A stretch of DNA of 64,000 nucleotides from positions 1-64,000 of the forward strand of contig NZ_JAQUVZ010000016.1 in assembly GCF_028693135.1 (NCBI RefSeq). The letters are read 5' to 3'. Source of the stretch: Methanosarcina sp. (lineage in GTDB: Archaea > Halobacteriota > Methanosarcinia > Methanosarcinales > Methanosarcinaceae). Shown here piece after piece: positions 3,882-43,349 of the stretch (position 1 is the first letter of the stretch; the number at the start of each line of letters is the position of its first letter). The notes under the pieces are model-generated. The model had not been told where the DNA came from and ran no database searches. It was given only the letters and a program-made list of their open reading frames with translations. Position numbers and translations under genes: made by a program.

Positions 3882-4721
3882 TCACAATCTTTTGTTCCCA
3901 AGATTCCTTCTTTTTTTTACAGTATCTTGCTTCCCAATTCTATTTACTGCTCTCTCTAATTCCCGGACCTTTTTAGCATCCTGCATCCATAGATTATCGT
4001 TATCAATTTTTGCGGTAAGAAATATCAAACCCCATATTAACGCAACAAATGCAAAAATAAGGAGGTAAATACCCGAGTCGTTTACGTCTATAGCCCCCAG
4101 CGAATGAAGGATCAACAACCCTGCAGAGAAAAACAATAGAGAGATTCTGTATAATAAAGGCCTGATATCCTTTTTTCCTTCTATTTTGTTACCTGTGTAA
4201 ATACTACCTTTTAATTCGCCGGTTCCAAATGGAAATAACCACCTTATCCCGGAAACCGTGCAGGAATCTTCGAGTAAGTGTAAGAATTGCCCAGATATCA
4301 AACCTAAGAATAAGAAACCTATAAGAGTAGCATTTATTCCATGGAAAATGAAATAGCCAACTATTGTTGTCAACAAAGTGAGTACAAAGGAGCTTATTAA
4401 TACTCCAATAGGAGAATGCATTACACCTCTATGTTGTTCCTCTACAACGTATTCAAGATTCATTTTTTCTTTTAAATTGAAGAAACTGAAAGAAAAAACT
4501 ATCAGCTTATGAAGAGGAACCATGAGATCATAAACGATTTTGAAATCATAGTGTAATTTGGGCTTTCCACCACAGTCTGCATCAGGTGTTAGCGAGCCTA
4601 TGATAGCAGCCACAAGTACACAGAAGGCATATACAGGCTGCGGGTTATCTGAAAATATAAGTGGAATCGTAAATGGAAATACTGTTCCAAGTGTTATAGA
4701 AACATGATCTTTACCCAACAT
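3882..4721 (-). CDS. Membrane-bound metal-dependent hydrolase (DUF457/YdjM-like)
   Basis: The 279-residue protein starts MLGKDHVSITLG. An early His followed by hydrophobic helices, a PDADCGGKPKLHYD segment, HRGVMHSP and a later HLLEDSCT together give the spaced His/Asp pattern of the YbcI/YdjM (DUF457) family of predicted zinc-dependent membrane hydrolases. At least six hydrophobic segments are visible, between residues 10 and 245, and the C-terminus is basic. The substrate is unknown for the family. It stands alone, with no co-directional neighbour within 270 bases. Confidence 0.75.
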   Translation of the reverse strand: MLGKDHVSITLGTVFPFTIPLIFSDNPQPVYAFCVLVAAIIGSLTPDADCGGKPKLHYDFKIVYDLMVPLHKLIVFSFSFFNLKEKMNLEYVVEEQHRGVMHSPIGVLISSFVLTLLTTIVGYFIFHGINATLIGFLFLGLISGQFLHLLEDSCTVSGIRWLFPFGTGELKGSIYTGNKIEGKKDIRPLLYRISLLFFSAGLLILHSLGAIDVNDSGIYLLIFAFVALIWGLIFLTAKIDNDNLWMQDAKKVRELERAVNRIGKQDTVKKRRNLGNKRL

Positions 4722-34324: not shown

Positions 34325-34546
34325 TCCAACTAAACCCCCATTGCCTTTTTTTGTTTATATTTATCTAAGATTATATTAGCTATATTGTATCTATATGCAT
34401 ATTATTTATCTATTCCTGAGCCTCAGAAATACAAACTATCAAAAATAATAGGCTGGAATAAAAAACGCAACCAACCGGGCATTTGAAAAAAGCCAGATGT
34501 TGAATTTAGATGTTGAATTTACAGGTAAAAGAGCGTGGAGAGTAAA

Positions 34547-35113
34547 ATGAAACCAACCGATGACCTGAGAGAAGAACACACAGCTGTCAGACTCATGCTA
34601 AGAATCCTTGACGGCGTATGCACGGATATAGAAGCTGAAAGGAGCGTTAAACTGGAGCATCTTGAGGGACTCTTAGAATTCATGAAAATATTTGTGGATA
34701 AGTGCCATCACACAAAAGAAGAGGTTTACCTTTTCCCTGAAATGGAAAAGGCTGGAATTCCAGCAAGAGAGTTAATCGGCTCTCTTATAATGGAACATAA
34801 ACAGGGAAGGGAGCATGTCAGCAGAATAGAAGAGGCAGTTTCAAGAAAGGTATGGGATAAAGAAGGATTGACAATTCTTGAGGACGCAAGGGCATATATT
34901 CAGCTTTTAACCTTGCATACCGAGAAAGAGGAAAAAGACCTTTTCCCGATGGCTGATGCCTGCCTTTCACCGGAAGTGCAGAAGGAGTTACTTGACTCTT
35001 TTGAGGTTGTAGAAAATGAAGAGATAGGTACAGGCAAGCATGAAGAGTTCCACAGGCTGCTTCACCGTCTGAAAGAAATATACTTGATGCCCGAAAAAGA
35101 GAAGGAGTCTTAA
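34547..35113 (+). CDS. Hemerythrin-like di-iron protein
   Basis: I chose ATG 34547 because GGAGAG ends four bases upstream; a GTG at 34535 is the outer alternative. The 188-residue protein is a four-helix hemerythrin domain: LREEHTAVRLML (first His), then CHHTKEEVYLFPEME (His plus ExxxxFP), MEHKQGREHV (His), and LHTEKEEKDLFPMAD (HxxxEE). Iron ligands seen are H, HxxxE, H and HxxxD/E in the right order. It may sense or bind oxygen or nitric oxide. Convergent with the TrmB gene. Confidence 0.88.
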   Translation: MKPTDDLREEHTAVRLMLRILDGVCTDIEAERSVKLEHLEGLLEFMKIFVDKCHHTKEEVYLFPEMEKAGIPARELIGSLIMEHKQGREHVSRIEEAVSRKVWDKEGLTILEDARAYIQLLTLHTEKEEKDLFPMADACLSPEVQKELLDSFEVVENEEIGTGKHEEFHRLLHRLKEIYLMPEKEKES

Positions 35114-36553: not shown

Positions 36554-37009
36554 TCAAATATCAGTTGACATGAACTGCCACTTAAAATCCGGCAAATACC
36601 CTTCCCTGTACAACATTCCTTTATAATCATTTATTATCTTACTCATTTTACAGGTATACTTTATGAAGTCCGTGCCTGCTTCCCCTTTGAATAGCATTTT
36701 TTCTGCTTTCTCCAGAAGATCCGGAGAGATAAATACCATTTCTTCTTTAGTGTGTAATAACAGAGCAGAAAAATCCCTGTGAATGCCCATGCTTTTTTTC
36801 AAAAGTTCCGTATTTAAGGTATCTTCGGAGATATAGCTCTTGAATTTTAGATAAGCATGAAAGTTCGCTATGTTCTGATTTAAAGAGTTCAAAATTGAAT
36901 ACAACATATTATCGGTTTGAGGAAGAGAAAGGTCCTGAAGCTCAGGATGAGCGCCCTCATAAGATTCGTTTTCACCTGTATTTTTGTCCCGAGTTGTATC
37001 GTAGTCCAT
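36554..37009 (-). CDS. Protein of unknown function
   Basis: I start at ATG 37009 (MDYDTTRDKNTGEN), which has GGTGAT four bases upstream; the frame runs on to 37033. The 151-residue product is soluble and acidic at the N-terminus. The remainder is mostly helical (LYSILNSLNQNIANFHAYLK, GIHRDFSALLLHTKEEMVF, DFIKYTCKMSKIINDYK), with scattered His and Glu on helices that could bind a metal, though no family pattern is clear. It may be co-transcribed with the ferredoxin gene 79 bases downstream. Confidence 0.6.
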   Translation of the reverse strand: MDYDTTRDKNTGENESYEGAHPELQDLSLPQTDNMLYSILNSLNQNIANFHAYLKFKSYISEDTLNTELLKKSMGIHRDFSALLLHTKEEMVFISPDLLEKAEKMLFKGEAGTDFIKYTCKMSKIINDYKGMLYREGYLPDFKWQFMSTDI

Positions 37010-37177
37010 TTTATCACCCTTGTATATTCTCAACTTATATTCACAAATTATATTATGTCAACTTGTATTATTCACAACTTATATGTTAGAAAAAAACCTG
37101 AGTTTTGATTCCATCAGAAGGCTGCTTTATGCCAACTAGAAGTAAATTTTGGATTTTTGCTTGCATTAATGAGGTTT

Positions 37178-37531
37178 TCAGTGGTGTGTCCCTTCCACCA
37201 CTTTTATACCCGCATCCTGAATCGTCTTTCTGATGGTATCTATATGGGGACATTTCGGATAACTGTCTTCCATAAGCATGCAGGAACTGAGGTGCACGAC
37301 ATCGAGATCATGCTTTTTCAGAGCATTTAACAGGCGGTAAACCCTCCTGCCCGAGCAGCCCCCACATGTAAAGAAGGCAATTATCTGCGCTTCTTCGTCG
37401 TATTCCTCAAAGTGGGACTTCCTCTCATTGAAGGCTTTGAAGCAGCCCACGCCAGGACAGGCTTCCGAGACGATGTCACAGCGGACTACAGCTATTTTGA
37501 TGGGTTTTGTTTTTGCAGTCAATTTTTGCAC
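37178..37531 (-). CDS. CGGC-domain protein (cysteine-rich metal-binding family)
   Basis: A 117-residue protein with the CGGC-domain layout: VVRCDIVSEACPGVGCFKAFNE (cysteines at about 18, 24, 29), FFTCGGCSGRRVYRLL (the CGGC motif, about 57-63), and SSCMLMEDSYPKCPH (two more Cys). These cysteines probably bind a metal or cluster. The start appears to be a GTG at 37531; no ATG is available. It lies 35 bases after the cupin gene, likely in one operon. Function unproven for the family. Confidence 0.82.
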   Translation of the reverse strand: MQKLTAKTKPIKIAVVRCDIVSEACPGVGCFKAFNERKSHFEEYDEEAQIIAFFTCGGCSGRRVYRLLNALKKHDLDVVHLSSCMLMEDSYPKCPHIDTIRKTIQDAGIKVVEGTHH

Positions 37532-37566: not shown

Positions 37567-37905
37567 TTACAGCAGGCGGGTAGATTCAGTCGGTTTCGGA
37601 ACTTTTACAACAAGCACCCTGAAAATACCGTCTCCGGGGTTCAGAAGGCGGTGAGGAACCTTTGCAGGGCTTTCGATCAGCATATCCCTGCTGACTTCTT
37701 CCTGTTCGTCCCCGATTTCAACTACGCCTTTTCCTTCGAGAATGTAAAAAAAGACGTCCACAGGCGTGATGTGTTTTTTTAAGGCTTCCCCTGGCTTGAG
37801 TTCGATGTGCACTGCCTGGGCATGTTCCGTATCATAGAGCATCCGTACGCTCACATTGTGAGGGTTCGGTTTTTCCGGCGAGGATTTCATCTCAACAACT
37901 TTCAT
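37567..37905 (-). CDS. Small cupin-domain protein
   Basis: A 112-residue single-domain cupin. The motif 1 equivalent is HAQAVHIELKPGEALKKHITPVDVFFYILEGKG, of which KKHITPVDVFFYILEG carries the metal-binding His, though the canonical HxH is H-I-T. Motif 2 is ESPAKVPHRLLNPGD with its His. The metal may be iron or another. The ATG is preceded by AAAGGGGAGAACGAG. The leader contains an 11-bp repeat and a TATA box (TATATAAA on the minus strand, about 38018-38025). It is first in a probable operon with the CGGC gene. Confidence 0.88.
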   Translation of the reverse strand: MKVVEMKSSPEKPNPHNVSVRMLYDTEHAQAVHIELKPGEALKKHITPVDVFFYILEGKGVVEIGDEQEEVSRDMLIESPAKVPHRLLNPGDGIFRVLVVKVPKPTESTRLL

Positions 37906-37936
37906 CTCGTTCTCCCCTTTTTGACCATTTTTCTGT

Positions 37937-38023
37937 GTTTTGATTCCGTTTTTATTCCGTTTTGATTCCGTTTTTATTCTGTTTTTATTCTGTTTTTGTT
38001 CTGTTTTTGTTCTGTTTTTATAT
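37937..38023. repeat. 11-bp tandem repeat, about eight copies, in the cupin leader
   Basis: GTTTTGATTCC, GTTTTTATTCT and GTTTTTGTTCT units follow each other with an exact 11-base period from 37937. On the cupin coding strand it reads as A-rich tracts between the TATA box and the ribosome site, about 90 bases of repeat in the untranslated leader. Confidence 0.9.
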
Positions 38024-38096
38024 ATGCCTGATCAGTACCAATCTACTCAATCAGTTGTGAAGTAGGGCATCTTCTAAACTGTAAAGCCGCAGGAGC

Positions 38097-38756
38097 TTAG
38101 AGTCCAACCTGAGTTTTGAACTCTTCAAGACCCGTATCCTCAATGAATTTTCCGAGCCTCTTTTTTGTACCGGAATTTTTGTAGAAGGTTATGATTCTGT
38201 CCACGGCATCGAGAACCTCATCTTCAGAAAGTGCCTTTGCCACAACATCCGCAAGCCTGGGAGATGCAGCAGCAGAGCCTCCAACCATAAGATTATAGCC
38301 TTTTGCCGTGCCCATTATCCCTATATCCTTGATAGCAGGCTCAGCGCATGAATTCGGGCAGCCACTAACTCCCATTTTCAGTTTGGAAGGCATGGGCATC
38401 CCGTGATATTTTTCATCCAGTTTGAGGCCCAGACCCAGTGCATCCTGTTTAGCTTGCTTGCAGAAAGTTGTTCCCGGGCACATCTTAACACTTCTTACGC
38501 AGAGCCCTATTGCTGCTCCAGGTTTTATGCCAAGGTCAGCCCAGGCATTGTCAAGGTCTTCTTCTTTAAGACCTACGATTGCAATTCTCTGAGCAGAGGT
38601 CATCTTCAGGGCAGCTGCACCATACTTTTTTGCAACTTCGGCGATTTTTATGAGAGTATCCGGATCGACAACTCCTCCCGGAATGTGGGGGGCTATTGCA
38701 TATGTCTCACGGTCTCTCTGAACGATTGCGCCTTTTGCAGGTAAATTGTCTTTCAC
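38097..38756 (-). CDS. Small siroheme-dependent sulfite/nitrite reductase-like protein (copy 1)
   Basis: I start at GTG 38756 (VKDNLPAKGAI), which gives 219 residues, like the 223-residue paralogue, and has GGAGAAAGGATC upstream; an ATG at 38801 would add a peptide with no match. It is the minimal half-type reductase fold. The siroheme/4Fe-4S ligands are CPGTTFC (Cx5C, about 93-99) and CPNSC (Cx3C, about 132-136). Also present are ALKMTSAQRIAIVGL and IMGTAKGYNLMVGG. These small Dsr-like proteins of methanogens have unproven substrates (sulfite or nitrite). It is divergent from an HxlR regulator gene 147 bases away. Confidence 0.87.
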   Translation of the reverse strand: MKDNLPAKGAIVQRDRETYAIAPHIPGGVVDPDTLIKIAEVAKKYGAAALKMTSAQRIAIVGLKEEDLDNAWADLGIKPGAAIGLCVRSVKMCPGTTFCKQAKQDALGLGLKLDEKYHGMPMPSKLKMGVSGCPNSCAEPAIKDIGIMGTAKGYNLMVGGSAAASPRLADVVAKALSEDEVLDAVDRIITFYKNSGTKKRLGKFIEDTGLEEFKTQVGL

Positions 38757-38870
38757 AGTTGATCCTTTCTCCTCATCTTTATTATTACAGAAATATATCA
38801 TTAAAGAATATTTTATAAAATTAAATATTATAATAGTATCTTTTGGATACCAGTATATTAGAGATACTAA

Positions 38871-38905
38871 CTTATATATCAGACAGTTTCTATGTTTATA
38901 CTATG
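38871..38905 (+). promoter_or_regulatory. Near-leaderless promoter and start-codon element of HxlR gene 1
   Basis: TTATATATC (38872-38880) is a TATA box that puts the start of transcription at about 38901, within two or three bases of the ATG at 38903. CTATGTTTATACTATG (38890-38905), next to and over the start codon, is an imperfect version of the palindrome in the paralogous promoter. AGTATC/GATACT arms further upstream (38834-38875) may also be operator elements. Confidence 0.55.
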
Positions 38906-39259
38906 AAAGACTGCACAGTCTACAAGACAATGAATATTATAGGAAAAAGATGGACCATCCATATCCTCCTTGAGCTGCACAAAGGGGAAAAAAAAGAAAA
39001 GCGCTTCAATGAGCTGAAAAGAAAGCTGGGATCCGTAACCCCGAAAATCCTTTCGGAAAGGCTAACCGAACTTGAAGCAGAAGGTATGATCATGAAGAAG
39101 GTTGACGAGTCCACAAATCCCCCAAAATCCGAGTATTACCTTACAGAAAGCGGAAGGGATTTTATAAAGATCATACAGGGGATAAAAAGGTGGGGGCTAA
39201 AGTGGAAATTCCAGAATGAAGAATGTGAAAAAGCCATCTGCAAGTACTGTGACGTTTAA
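38903..39259 (+). CDS. HxlR-family transcriptional regulator (copy 1)
   Basis: A 118-residue winged-helix repressor or activator. The start is at ATG 38903 (MKDCTVYKTMN): the TATA box lies 26-28 bases upstream of it, so the outer ATG at 38843 cannot be used. Hallmarks are IGKRWTIHILLEL (11-23), RFNELKRKLGSVTPKILSERLTELE (recognition part TPKILSERLTELE) and YYLTESGRDFI. It keeps the N-terminal Cys typical of redox-sensing members and ends with CEKAICKYC, a Cx4Cx2C cluster. That tail is unusual and suggests a metal or iron-sulfur sensor. It is divergent from siroheme reductase copy 1. Confidence 0.9.
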   Translation: MKDCTVYKTMNIIGKRWTIHILLELHKGEKKEKRFNELKRKLGSVTPKILSERLTELEAEGMIMKKVDESTNPPKSEYYLTESGRDFIKIIQGIKRWGLKWKFQNEECEKAICKYCDV

Positions 39260-39353
39260 GGGCAAAAAACATAAAGGAAAACATGTAATGAAAAAAATGA
39301 TAAAAGCAAGTAAGAAAGGAAAATAAAGGGAAAAAGAAGGAAAAGCAGGTCTT

Positions 39354-40025
39354 TTACTTTTCCCAGAGACCGACTTCTTTTTTGAACTCTTCCAGACCGA
39401 TTTCGTCTATGATTGTTCCTAGCCTTTTCCTGTTTTCCCCGTATTCTTTGAAGAATTCGACTACCCTGTCAACAGCTTCCAGGACTTCGTCTTCAGAGAG
39501 ACCTTTTGCCACAACGTCGGCAAGCCTCGGTTTCAGTCCGGCGGCGCCGCCTACCATGAGGGTGTAGCCTTTTGCCGTGCCCATAACCCCTACGTCCTTA
39601 ATCACGGGTTCGGAGCAGGAACTCGGGCAGCCGGAAACAGCCATTTTCATCATGTAAGGAAGTTTTACCCCCCTATATCTCGCCTCCAGTTTCATCCCGA
39701 GGCTTGCGGCATCCTGCTGGCCTTTCCTGCAGTAAGTCGTCCCCAGGCAGAACTTGACACCCTTTACAAAAGGTCCGGCAACCATCCCGGCGTCCATGCC
39801 GAGGTCTGACCAGGCGGCGTCAATGTCTTCTTCTTTTAAGCCTACGATTGCCATCTTCTGTTCGGAGGTCATTTTCAGGGTTGCAGCCCCGTATTTCTCC
39901 GCAACATCTGCAATCTTCCTGAGGGTTGCAGGGTCAACAAAGCCCCCAGGGGTTCTGGGAACGATTAAATAGGTTTCTCCGTCGCGCTGGATGATAGCAT
40001 TCTTTTCAGGTATGGTCTTCTTCAT
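39354..40025 (-). CDS. Small siroheme-dependent sulfite/nitrite reductase-like protein (copy 2)
   Basis: A 223-residue paralogue of the 38097 protein, collinear over its whole length. The siroheme/4Fe-4S ligands are CLGTTYC (Cx5C) and CPSSC (Cx3C), with LKMTSEQKMAIVGL and VMGTAKGYTLMVGG also kept. Differences cluster in the segment before the first cysteine pair (AGMVAGPFVKGVKF in place of PGAAIGLCVRSVKM), near the active site, so substrate preference may differ. The ATG start MKKTIPEKN is preceded by AGAGGCGAT. It is divergent from a second HxlR gene, repeating the layout of copy 1. Confidence 0.88.
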   Translation of the reverse strand: MKKTIPEKNAIIQRDGETYLIVPRTPGGFVDPATLRKIADVAEKYGAATLKMTSEQKMAIVGLKEEDIDAAWSDLGMDAGMVAGPFVKGVKFCLGTTYCRKGQQDAASLGMKLEARYRGVKLPYMMKMAVSGCPSSCSEPVIKDVGVMGTAKGYTLMVGGAAGLKPRLADVVAKGLSEDEVLEAVDRVVEFFKEYGENRKRLGTIIDEIGLEEFKKEVGLWEK

Positions 40026-40141
40026 GGGTATCGCCTCTTATCTAAGTGAATAATTATACACTGTTATCCTTAATAAAGGAATATTCTGGAAATGTATACA
40101 TCCATCATGCATCATTTAATAGTAGTATTTTAAAGATATTG

Positions 40142-40175
40142 CTTATATAAGGACAGTATCATAGTTTATACTATG
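40142..40175 (+). promoter_or_regulatory. Near-leaderless promoter and perfect palindrome at HxlR gene 2 start
   Basis: CTTATATA (40142-40149) is a TATA box predicting transcription start at about 40172, next to the ATG at 40173. CATAGTTTATACTATG (40160-40175) is a perfect 6-4-6 palindrome covering the start site and start codon. This is where an autorepressor would block initiation. Confidence 0.6.
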
Positions 40176-40529
40176 AAAAACTGTATTGTCTACAAAACGA
40201 TGAACATCGTGGGGAAACGCTGGACCATCCATATCTTGCTGGAGCTATATAAAGGGGAAAAGAAGGAAAAAGGCTTCAACGAGCTCAAACGCAAACTTGG
40301 AGGCATTACCCCTAGAATCCTTTCCGCCCGGATGACAGAACTGGAAAGTGAAGGTCTTATTGTAAAGCAAGTGGACAATTCCACAGTCCCCACCAGGTCA
40401 GAATATTTCCTTACAGACAGTGGAGAAGACTTCATAAAAGTTATCCAGGGAATCAAAAAATGGGGTTCAAAGTGGAAATTCAATAACAGCGAATGCGACA
40501 GGTCTGTTTGCAAATACTGTGACCTCTGA
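40173..40529 (+). CDS. HxlR-family transcriptional regulator (copy 2)
   Basis: A 118-residue paralogue of the 38903 protein, about three-quarters identical by eye. It has MKNCIVYKTMN, VGKRWTIHILLELYKGEKKEKGF, of which GKRWTIHILLEL is the family core, TPRILSARMTELE as recognition helix and YFLTDSGEDFI. The N-terminal Cys4 and the C-terminal CDRSVCKYC cluster (Cx4Cx2C) are both conserved between the copies, while other parts of the tail vary. That conservation argues for function. The mRNA is probably leaderless. Divergent from siroheme reductase copy 2. Confidence 0.9.
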   Translation: MKNCIVYKTMNIVGKRWTIHILLELYKGEKKEKGFNELKRKLGGITPRILSARMTELESEGLIVKQVDNSTVPTRSEYFLTDSGEDFIKVIQGIKKWGSKWKFNNSECDRSVCKYCDL

Positions 40530-42517: not shown

Positions 42518-43294
42518 TCACGGCAAGTTCCACGGCAGCTTCCCGTGGCTGGATTCCTTGTGTTTTTGCAGCTTCCAGTACTGTGCTACATTGCTTCTAA
42601 CCTTTTCTTCAATTGAACCGAAAGCGGTACATCTGGTAGTCCCCTGGTACTCTGAAGCCGCACAGATCACTCCACCCGCATTTGCTATAAAGTCCGGCAC
42701 GTAAAGAATCCCCTTTTCATAGAGGCTCTTTTCCGCTCCCTCCGTGACAGGAATGTTTGCCCCCTCAACCACCAGTTTAGTGTTCAGAAGATGGACGTTA
42801 CTCTCATTGATCACATCAGGGCGGGCTGCCGGAATCCAGATATCGCAGGGAACAGCAAGAACTGCATCAATGCCAAGCTTTTCCTCTCCGGGATAGTCAA
42901 GCACACTTTTGCCCTCTTTCTTAAGCCTTATAAGGACATCCACATCAAGCCCGTTCGGGTCATGGACCGTACCCCTGGAATCGGCGACTCCCACAAGGAC
43001 AGCTCCTTTCTGGTTAAAGAAACGGGCAGCTTGCCTCCCAACAGCCCCGAAGCCCTGAACAACCACACAAGCCCCGAGAACTGGAGGGCATTTACGGAAA
43101 AGAAGATGCCTATTATCTCCTCTCCGACCCCTGCTTCCCGGAACGGTTTGAAGATCACGTACTTGGAAGGAATCTCGGTTACAGGAATGCTTTCCAGGCT
43201 TGAACTGAAGAGCCCCATCGGGTTTTTCATCACTCCAGAGAACAGTCACCGGCTCAAAAGAAAGGTTGAATGAACTGGCAATTTTGCTTTCCAT
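42518..43294 (-). pseudogene. Fusion pseudogene: DUF169 N-terminus joined to glutamate dehydrogenase C-terminus
   Basis: The frame begins at ATG 43294 (GGTGATAAA upstream) as a DUF169 protein: MESKIASSFNLSFEPVTVLW and ALQFKPGKHSC. It then loses frame: IPSKYVIFKPFREA and FFSVNALQFSGLVWL, further DUF169 pieces, are read in another frame at about 43190-43070. From about 43075 the first frame becomes a Glu/Leu-type dehydrogenase: VVVQGFGAVGRQAARFF (NAD(P)-binding), then KLVVEGANIPVT and PDFIANAGGVI. The dehydrogenase catalytic N-domain is missing. At least one internal deletion and one joining event are needed. It cannot make either enzyme. Divergent from the MarR gene. Confidence 0.8.
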
Positions 43295-43335
43295 TTTATC
43301 ACCAAATAGTTGTTTACGCGACAGAGGACAGATAG

Positions 43336-43349
43336 GTTGCGTTGGCAAC
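43336..43349. promoter_or_regulatory. MarR-type operator, GTTGC-N4-GCAAC, site 1
   Basis: GTTGCGTTGGCAAC is a perfect 5-4-5 inverted repeat between the DUF169 remnant and the MarR gene, which are divergent. The same palindrome occurs twice upstream of the second MarR copy (46051 and 46098). Confidence 0.7.

Follow-up and report, generated by a model that had tools for sequence, protein, structure and literature searches.

A cysteine-tailed archaeal HxlR regulator with a tripartite operator, a candidate counterpart of HcpR and NsrR at hcp and siroheme reductase genes of Methanosarcinaceae

Bacterial regulators of hcp, the gene of hybrid cluster protein (Hcp), an enzyme that protects against nitric oxide (NO), include HcpR, NsrR, NorR, and DNR. 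NsrR, a member of the Rrf2 family, is a Cys-ligated iron-sulfur (Fe-S) sensor of NO that represses hcp and other NO-defence genes. HcpR of anaerobic bacteria belongs to the CRP/FNR family, uses TTGAC or TGTGA palindromes, and controls hcp, frdX, and often hemerythrin genes, with an inferred nitrogen-oxide signal (PMC1274295). YodB, an HxlR/DUF24 regulator like QsrR and HypR, recognises TACT-N7-AGTA, and its subunits become linked by Cys6-Cys101' disulfides (PMC8063818); the known targets of YodB and QsrR are quinone or disulfide stress genes. The group I dissimilatory sulfite reductase (Dsr)-like proteins (Dsr-LP), or P590, are small siroheme and 4Fe-4S enzymes of methanogens (PMC3448663, PMC9295563), and PMC3448663 mentions neither HxlR nor any regulator for them. 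HxlR regulators as such are known, as are Hcp and group I Dsr-LP. In the open-access literature, we found no archaeal hcp regulator, HxlR-Hcp link, Cys-tailed archaeal HxlR branch, or tripartite operator; the combination of HxlR, Methanosarcina, and sulfite reductase yielded no paper, and HxlR with Methanosarcina yielded unrelated papers only. Here, we describe two tandem pairs of siroheme reductase and hxlR genes in a stretch of 64,000 nucleotides from Methanosarcina sp. (NZ_JAQUVZ010000016.1, positions 1 to 64,000; hereafter the window), which belongs to contig C7 of a 4.2-Mb genome of Methanosarcina type.

The two head-to-head pairs (38097-40529) each consist of a reductase gene on the minus strand and a divergent hxlR gene on the plus strand. 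Pfam matches (NIR_SIR and NIR_SIR_ferr, E 3e-33 and 1e-30, for the reductases P0002 and P0003; PF01638, E 5.6e-24 and 2.9e-22, 84.2 and 78.8 bits versus a cut-off of 20.8), the ligand motifs Cx5C (CPGTTFC and CLGTTYC) and Cx3C (CPNSC and CPSSC), and identities between the copies of 62% over 220 amino acids (aa) for the reductases and 74% over 118 aa for HxlR all bear out the two units of the original prediction. The reductases have the Cx5C...Cx3C motif and only the NIR_SIR and NIR_SIR_ferr domains, with no extra ferredoxin domain, as in group I Dsr-LP. Based on sequence comparisons, we propose, with a probability of roughly 0.6, that the HxlR protein is an autoregulated archaeal counterpart of bacterial HcpR and NsrR, which would repress an hcp-centred stress set and be relieved by nitrosative stress. 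It is an HxlR protein, in contrast to the CRP/FNR-type HcpR, and it differs from NsrR in fold family and operator, with four invariant Cys that could hold an Fe-S or Zn site; by analogy, it would act like HcpR or NsrR while belonging to neither. The main support for this proposal is that the arrangement recurs across genera and phyla with exchanged partners.

The two HxlR proteins of the window carry the C-terminal tails CEKAICKYC and CDRSVCKYC, in agreement with the original prediction. Our main set of relatives comprised 112 Methanosarcinaceae genomes, which are mutually related, so that counts among them are not independent. Full-length orthologues (E up to 1e-27) were detected in 96 of these genomes, and the gap between orthologues and paralogues was sharp (E about 1e-37 versus 1e-15). 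All 105 distinct orthologues carry Cys4 and the Cx4Cx2C tail, corresponding to the invariant residues C4, C108, C113, and C116, even at identities as low as 47%, in Methanofastidiosia and DPANN; the DPANN loci are contigs of metagenome-assembled genomes, for which misbinning is possible. The tail is thus retained without variation in close orthologues, as had been anticipated, and in distant ones. Both cysteine features had also been thought absent from ordinary HxlR proteins, which holds for the tail (0/30 HxlR paralogues from Methanosarcinaceae) but not for the N-terminal Cys (30/30). The tail, constant in orthologues and absent from these paralogues, therefore sets this archaeal group apart as a branch of its own within the HxlR/DUF24 family. 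A plasmid search returned distant HxlR proteins only.

The predicted HxlR1 monomer (predicted local distance difference test score, pLDDT, 89) matched HypR, YodB, QsrR, and HxlR in Foldseek. Cys4 precedes helix 1, which begins at residue 5 in the model, in the position of the HxlR/DUF24 N-terminal Cys, and C4 and C108 lie at chain ends that roughly match those of YodB Cys6 and Cys101. Family, fold, N-terminal sensor Cys, and a palindrome of similar spacing are shared with YodB, QsrR, and HypR, whereas the Cx4Cx2C tail extends past the region matched by these proteins, and the archaeal HxlR has a tripartite array around the TATA box.

Aligned DNA upstream of hxlR revealed the layout of this array. 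Box A (AGTATC-N5-GATACT) is followed after 0-1 base by box B, of the same sequence, then by a spacer of 14-16 nt containing the TATA box, and finally by box C (AGTTTC-N6-GATACT), which ends at the ATG. We consider the boxes to be putative binding sites for an HxlR dimer, with the consensus AGTATC-N5/6-GATACT. The A-B-TATA-C spacing is constant across genera, Methanofastidiosia, and DPANN, whatever the partner gene. With a composite model trained on Methanosarcinaceae hxlR promoters only, the two best matches in the window were the two units (59.5 bits for unit 1 and 36.9 bits for unit 2, where box A is degenerate), and 17 of 18 loci outside Methanosarcinaceae scored 23.7-53.6 bits, as compared with at most 10.6 bits elsewhere in these outside loci and at most 13.2 bits for paralogous hxlR promoters. 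A genome search with the single 17-bp palindrome was dropped because, with up to 2 mismatches allowed, it gave 195 sites versus 100 for the control, and the genome scans therefore used the composite model and a TATA+box C pattern.

Sites of this type were also observed in trans. Using the hxlR-trained model, 27 of 40 hcp upstream regions exceeded the highest null score, 17.7 bits, reaching up to 60 bits, and a further 6 of the 40 showed a visible TATA box and box C. A regulon that functions like those of HcpR or NsrR requires an operator upstream of hcp, and one lies there even where no hxlR adjoins. All ten reductase loci without HxlR and all nine carbon monoxide dehydrogenase (CODH) loci remained at or below 14 bits. 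Strong PF03063 matches of about 629 aa (e.g., C3:78271) are CooS-type CODH rather than Hcp and provided the negative controls. In the window's genome, the TATA+box C pattern identified five distinct sites, and the control pattern identified none. One of the five is at hxlR1, two are in front of hcp, whose upstream region covers about 24340-25180 of contig C26, and two are elsewhere. Pattern matches at L252, L253, L255-L259, L261-L264, L268, and L269 were discarded for their null-level scores, and those at L254 and L266 were marginal. In one Methanolobus genome (L265), the array is located between hcp and a divergent hemerythrin gene of the same family as that in the window (Table 1); an operator was not found at the window hemerythrin, a relative of which is divergent from hxlR over the operator in L345.

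Two observations concern neighbouring reading frames. A short open reading frame (ORF) beside hcp (L157, about 4264-4422, contig C26 of the window's genome; also L184 and L190, where it has 57-61 aa, MYCDQCPEVLSGKGCTKNGPC...) has its own operator array. Its similarity to Hcp is confined to the N-terminal 4Fe-4S motif, and it may be either what is left of another hcp copy or a genuine mini-protein. In Methanimicrococcus, an HxlR-type array of 33 bits lies just upstream of a gene for a conserved membrane protein of ~175 aa (L250, about 2002; L251, about 1905), a possible further regulon member.

The divergent partner of hxlR changes between lineages. In 78 of 106 orthologues from the Methanosarcinaceae set, hxlR is head-to-head with the reductase, as seen in Methanosarcina, its sister genus, Methanolobus, and Methanococcoides. 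This position is taken by hcp (Pfam Prismane, 1e-179) in Methanohalophilus, Methanohalobium, Methanosalsum, and Methanimicrococcus, where the reductase is encoded elsewhere in the genome, and in Methanomethylovorans hxlR heads a cupin/CGGC/ferredoxin set. Outside Methanosarcinaceae, hxlR is divergent from hcp (L305, L337, L346), from a 277-aa ferredoxin, labelled FrdX-like by its size class and gene company (L296, L304, L309, L312, L339, L340, L343), or from hemerythrin (L345), and no reductase was found near hxlR in Methanofastidiosia and DPANN. In its N-terminal portion, the 277-aa protein is related to the ferredoxin-like protein of the window (tblastn, 56-68% over about 60-75 aa). The predicted synteny of the module in Methanosarcinaceae applies to most regulators but to only about half of the reductase copies, as 72 of the 150 listed had no HxlR neighbour. 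These copies, the clearest being that beside hdrED, are mostly upstream of hdrED and DUF116-like genes (names read from sequence). The hdrED-side arrangement recurs across Methanosarcinaceae with no HxlR operator, which suggests a separate, perhaps constitutive, role. In one such locus (L069, 3558-8446, contig C50), the gene of a third reductase, which shares 75% identity with reductase 1, lies upstream of hdrE/hdrD-like and two DUF116-like genes. Additionally, the partner of a divergent CGGC gene in L308 and L310 (also L082, L083) is a third hxlR paralogue, which has diverged further and has extra promoter boxes.

In the proposed mechanism, an HxlR dimer would bind boxes A, B, and C around the hxlR TATA box, repress its own gene, and also control the divergent promoter. 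A site between the TATA box and the start codon is the usual position of an archaeal repressor, and autorepression appears most likely because box C occupies this position at hxlR. In Methanolobus and Methanomethylovorans, the hcp start is about 20-35 nt from box A; transcription of hcp would start inside the array, which fits repression. The regulon would comprise hcp, the siroheme reductase, the cupin, the CGGC protein, the ferredoxin or FrdX-like protein, and hemerythrin. The likeliest signal would be nitrosative stress, as NO or as NO formed from nitrite or hydroxylamine, because the hcp, ferredoxin, and hemerythrin content matches that of bacterial HcpR regulons. By analogy with the joining of the N- and C-terminal Cys in YodB, the signal could be read by an Fe-S or Zn site that C4 of one subunit would form with the C-terminal Cys of its partner, or alternatively through thiol modification as in YodB itself. 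Once the signal had released the repressor, NO would be removed by Hcp, and nitrite or hydroxylamine (or sulfite) would serve as substrate of the siroheme enzyme. Sulfite, nitrite, and hydroxylamine are all reduced by FsrII of anaerobic methanotrophic archaea (ANME), a siroheme reductase of this broader kind (PMC9295563), which fits the nitrosative reading but does not prove it. Sulfite, nitrite, or NO had been suggested as a signal coupled to the adjacent reductase; a nitrogen-oxide type of signal agrees with the wider regulon, while the coupling is not supported. More tentatively, and at less than even odds, we suggest that the branch forms an Fe-S class of HxlR proteins, in which Cys4 and the partner's Cx4Cx2C would sense NO, and that an ancient, archaea-wide nitrosative regulon would operate through the tripartite operator from DPANN to Methanosarcina.

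Several points weigh against the nitrosative repressor. We know of no NO link for the cupin and CGGC neighbours. Seven of the 40 hcp regions, largely those of second hcp copies, lacked a site (L191, L200, L202-L205, L207), and the weaker site at hcp in Methanosarcina might in part be left over from an hxlR-hcp pair that has since been lost. Activation is possible at the reductase, as its likely TATA box has boxes A and B upstream of it. The structure prediction covered the monomer, and the inter-subunit site of C4 and the partner's Cx4Cx2C is therefore a hypothetical one. Furthermore, the role of Hcp in methanogens is unsettled, with no NO source known for some of them (PMC10210160).

The rival that survives best concerns the tail only. 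Cx4Cx2C might be a structural, non-sensing zinc site, which would leave the regulon as proposed but would conflict with a Cys4-type sensor; Zn would be well served by the four Cys of each subunit, and the sequence does not separate Zn from Fe-S. Invariance across phyla and the Fe-S-rich stress targets favour a sensor, although not decisively, and we regard the structural site as rather unlikely.

We consider it unlikely, to a slightly greater degree, that the protein is a general thiol, electrophile, or oxygen sensor like YodB, QsrR, and HypR, which would respond through disulfides or adducts and for which hcp, hemerythrin, and the reductase would be an oxidative-stress set. The fold and family, the Cys placed, like that of YodB, where the helix begins, and the hemerythrin and ferredoxin neighbours, which also suit oxygen stress, are all consistent with this explanation. 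However, the three additional invariant Cys in a fixed Cx4Cx2C exceed the one or two that a thiol switch needs, and the recurrent partners Hcp and the FrdX-like protein are the core of bacterial nitrogen-oxide regulons.

A local sulfite response is improbable. Here, HxlR would sense sulfite or another sulfur oxyanion and control a P590-type sulfite reductase, with hcp as a secondary target, as might be expected from the group I Dsr-like character of the reductases, the head-to-head pairing of most hxlR genes with them, and the isolation of P590 with sulfite reductase activity from Methanosarcina barkeri, as cited in PMC9295563. Nevertheless, the cysteines and the operator are kept without a nearby reductase, next to hcp, FrdX-like, and hemerythrin partners; the hdrED-side reductase lacks a site; and the related FsrII also accepts nitrite and hydroxylamine.

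Least credible of all is a dedicated response of each HxlR copy to what its own reductase consumes or produces, the strict module of the original prediction, which we have dropped because partners exchange between lineages and vary by genus: retention of hxlR2 alongside reductase 2 and the long stem of the latter speak for it, but boxes B and C are alike in both units, so that the two regulators probably read one operator, and an operator occurs in trans at hcp without an adjacent hxlR.

The hxlR1 and hxlR2 DNA shares a 300-nt block of 73% identity. Both the reductase and the HxlR trees place the split between type 1 and type 2 before the parting of Methanosarcina from its sister genus; by these trees, the duplication predates the genus Methanosarcina, and the pair was probably duplicated as one unit, with unit 2 probably lost later in most Methanosarcina. 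In accordance with the expected retention of both halves, those of unit 2 are nearly always found together, hxlR2 being still present in 8 of the 9 genomes seen with reductase 2. The function of reductase 2 may have changed, because its stem branch in the tree is long (0.62).

The features of the window are listed in Table 1. Some starts of the original prediction were amended, with hxlR1 now beginning at 38903 and hxlR2 at 40173. Reductase 1 most likely begins at GTG 38756 rather than at ATG 38801, because the first 15 codons of the longer frame adjoin the likely TATA box and are unconserved, and relatives begin at MKDNLPEKGAIVQRD. Downstream of reductase 1, the gene order is cupin, CGGC protein, uncharacterised protein, and ferredoxin-like protein. 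Tandem repeats of 11 bp (GTTTTTATTCT type) lie between the cupin and reductase 1 genes (37926-38024) and may bear on whether the two genes are cotranscribed. Separately, a glutamate dehydrogenase-like ORF (42518-43348) encodes 276 aa, versus 374-377 aa in relatives, and its N-terminus looks scrambled; it is a probable frameshift or pseudogene.

Table 1. Genes and putative promoter elements of the two units and their surroundings (window positions).
Feature	Position	Strand	Basis
Hemerythrin, possible regulon member	34535..35113	+	Pfam PF01814
Ferredoxin-like protein, 122 aa	36107..36475	-	Pfam Fer4_7
Uncharacterised companion protein, seen in Methanosarcina only	36554..37033	-	No Pfam match; synteny
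CGGC-domain protein, conserved companion	37178..37531	-	Pfam PF08821, synteny
Cupin, gene following reductase 1; beside hxlR in other genera	37567..37905	-	Pfam Cupin_2, synteny
Siroheme reductase 1, group I Dsr-like, 219 aa from GTG; ORF extends to 38801	38097..38756	-	Pfam NIR_SIR and NIR_SIR_ferr, Cx5C, Cx3C
Likely TATA box of reductase 1 (TTTTATAAAA)	38811..38820		Sequence, inferred
Putative operator box A (AGTATCTTTTGGATACC)	38835..38851	+	Top position weight matrix (PWM) match of the window; 1 mismatch to AGTATC-N5-GATACT
Putative operator box B (AGTATATTAGAGATACT)	38852..38868	+	PWM; same position in orthologues
TATA box of hxlR1 (TTATATAT)	38872..38879	+	Conserved between boxes B and C
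Putative operator box C (AGTTTCTATGTTTATACT), abuts hxlR1 start codon	38885..38902	+	PWM, pattern match
hxlR1, HxlR regulator, 118 aa, Cys4 and C-terminal Cx4Cx2C	38903..39259	+	PF01638
Siroheme reductase 2, 223 aa	39354..40025	-	Pfam; 100/100-supported clade with long stem
Putative unit 2 operator box B (AGTATTTTAAAGATATT)	40124..40140	+	PWM
TATA box of hxlR2 (TTATATAA)	40143..40150	+	Sequence; conserved position
Putative unit 2 operator box C (AGTATCATAGTTTATACT), abuts hxlR2 start codon	40155..40172	+	PWM, pattern match
hxlR2, HxlR regulator, 118 aa, Cys4 and C-terminal Cx4Cx2C	40173..40529	+	PF01638

A single regulator whose operator is conserved from DPANN to Methanosarcina would provide a defined regulon, together with candidates for its signal and for the cofactor. 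Shared control by this regulator may also offer a route to the function of the small siroheme reductases of the P590 type, the CGGC proteins, and the cupin.

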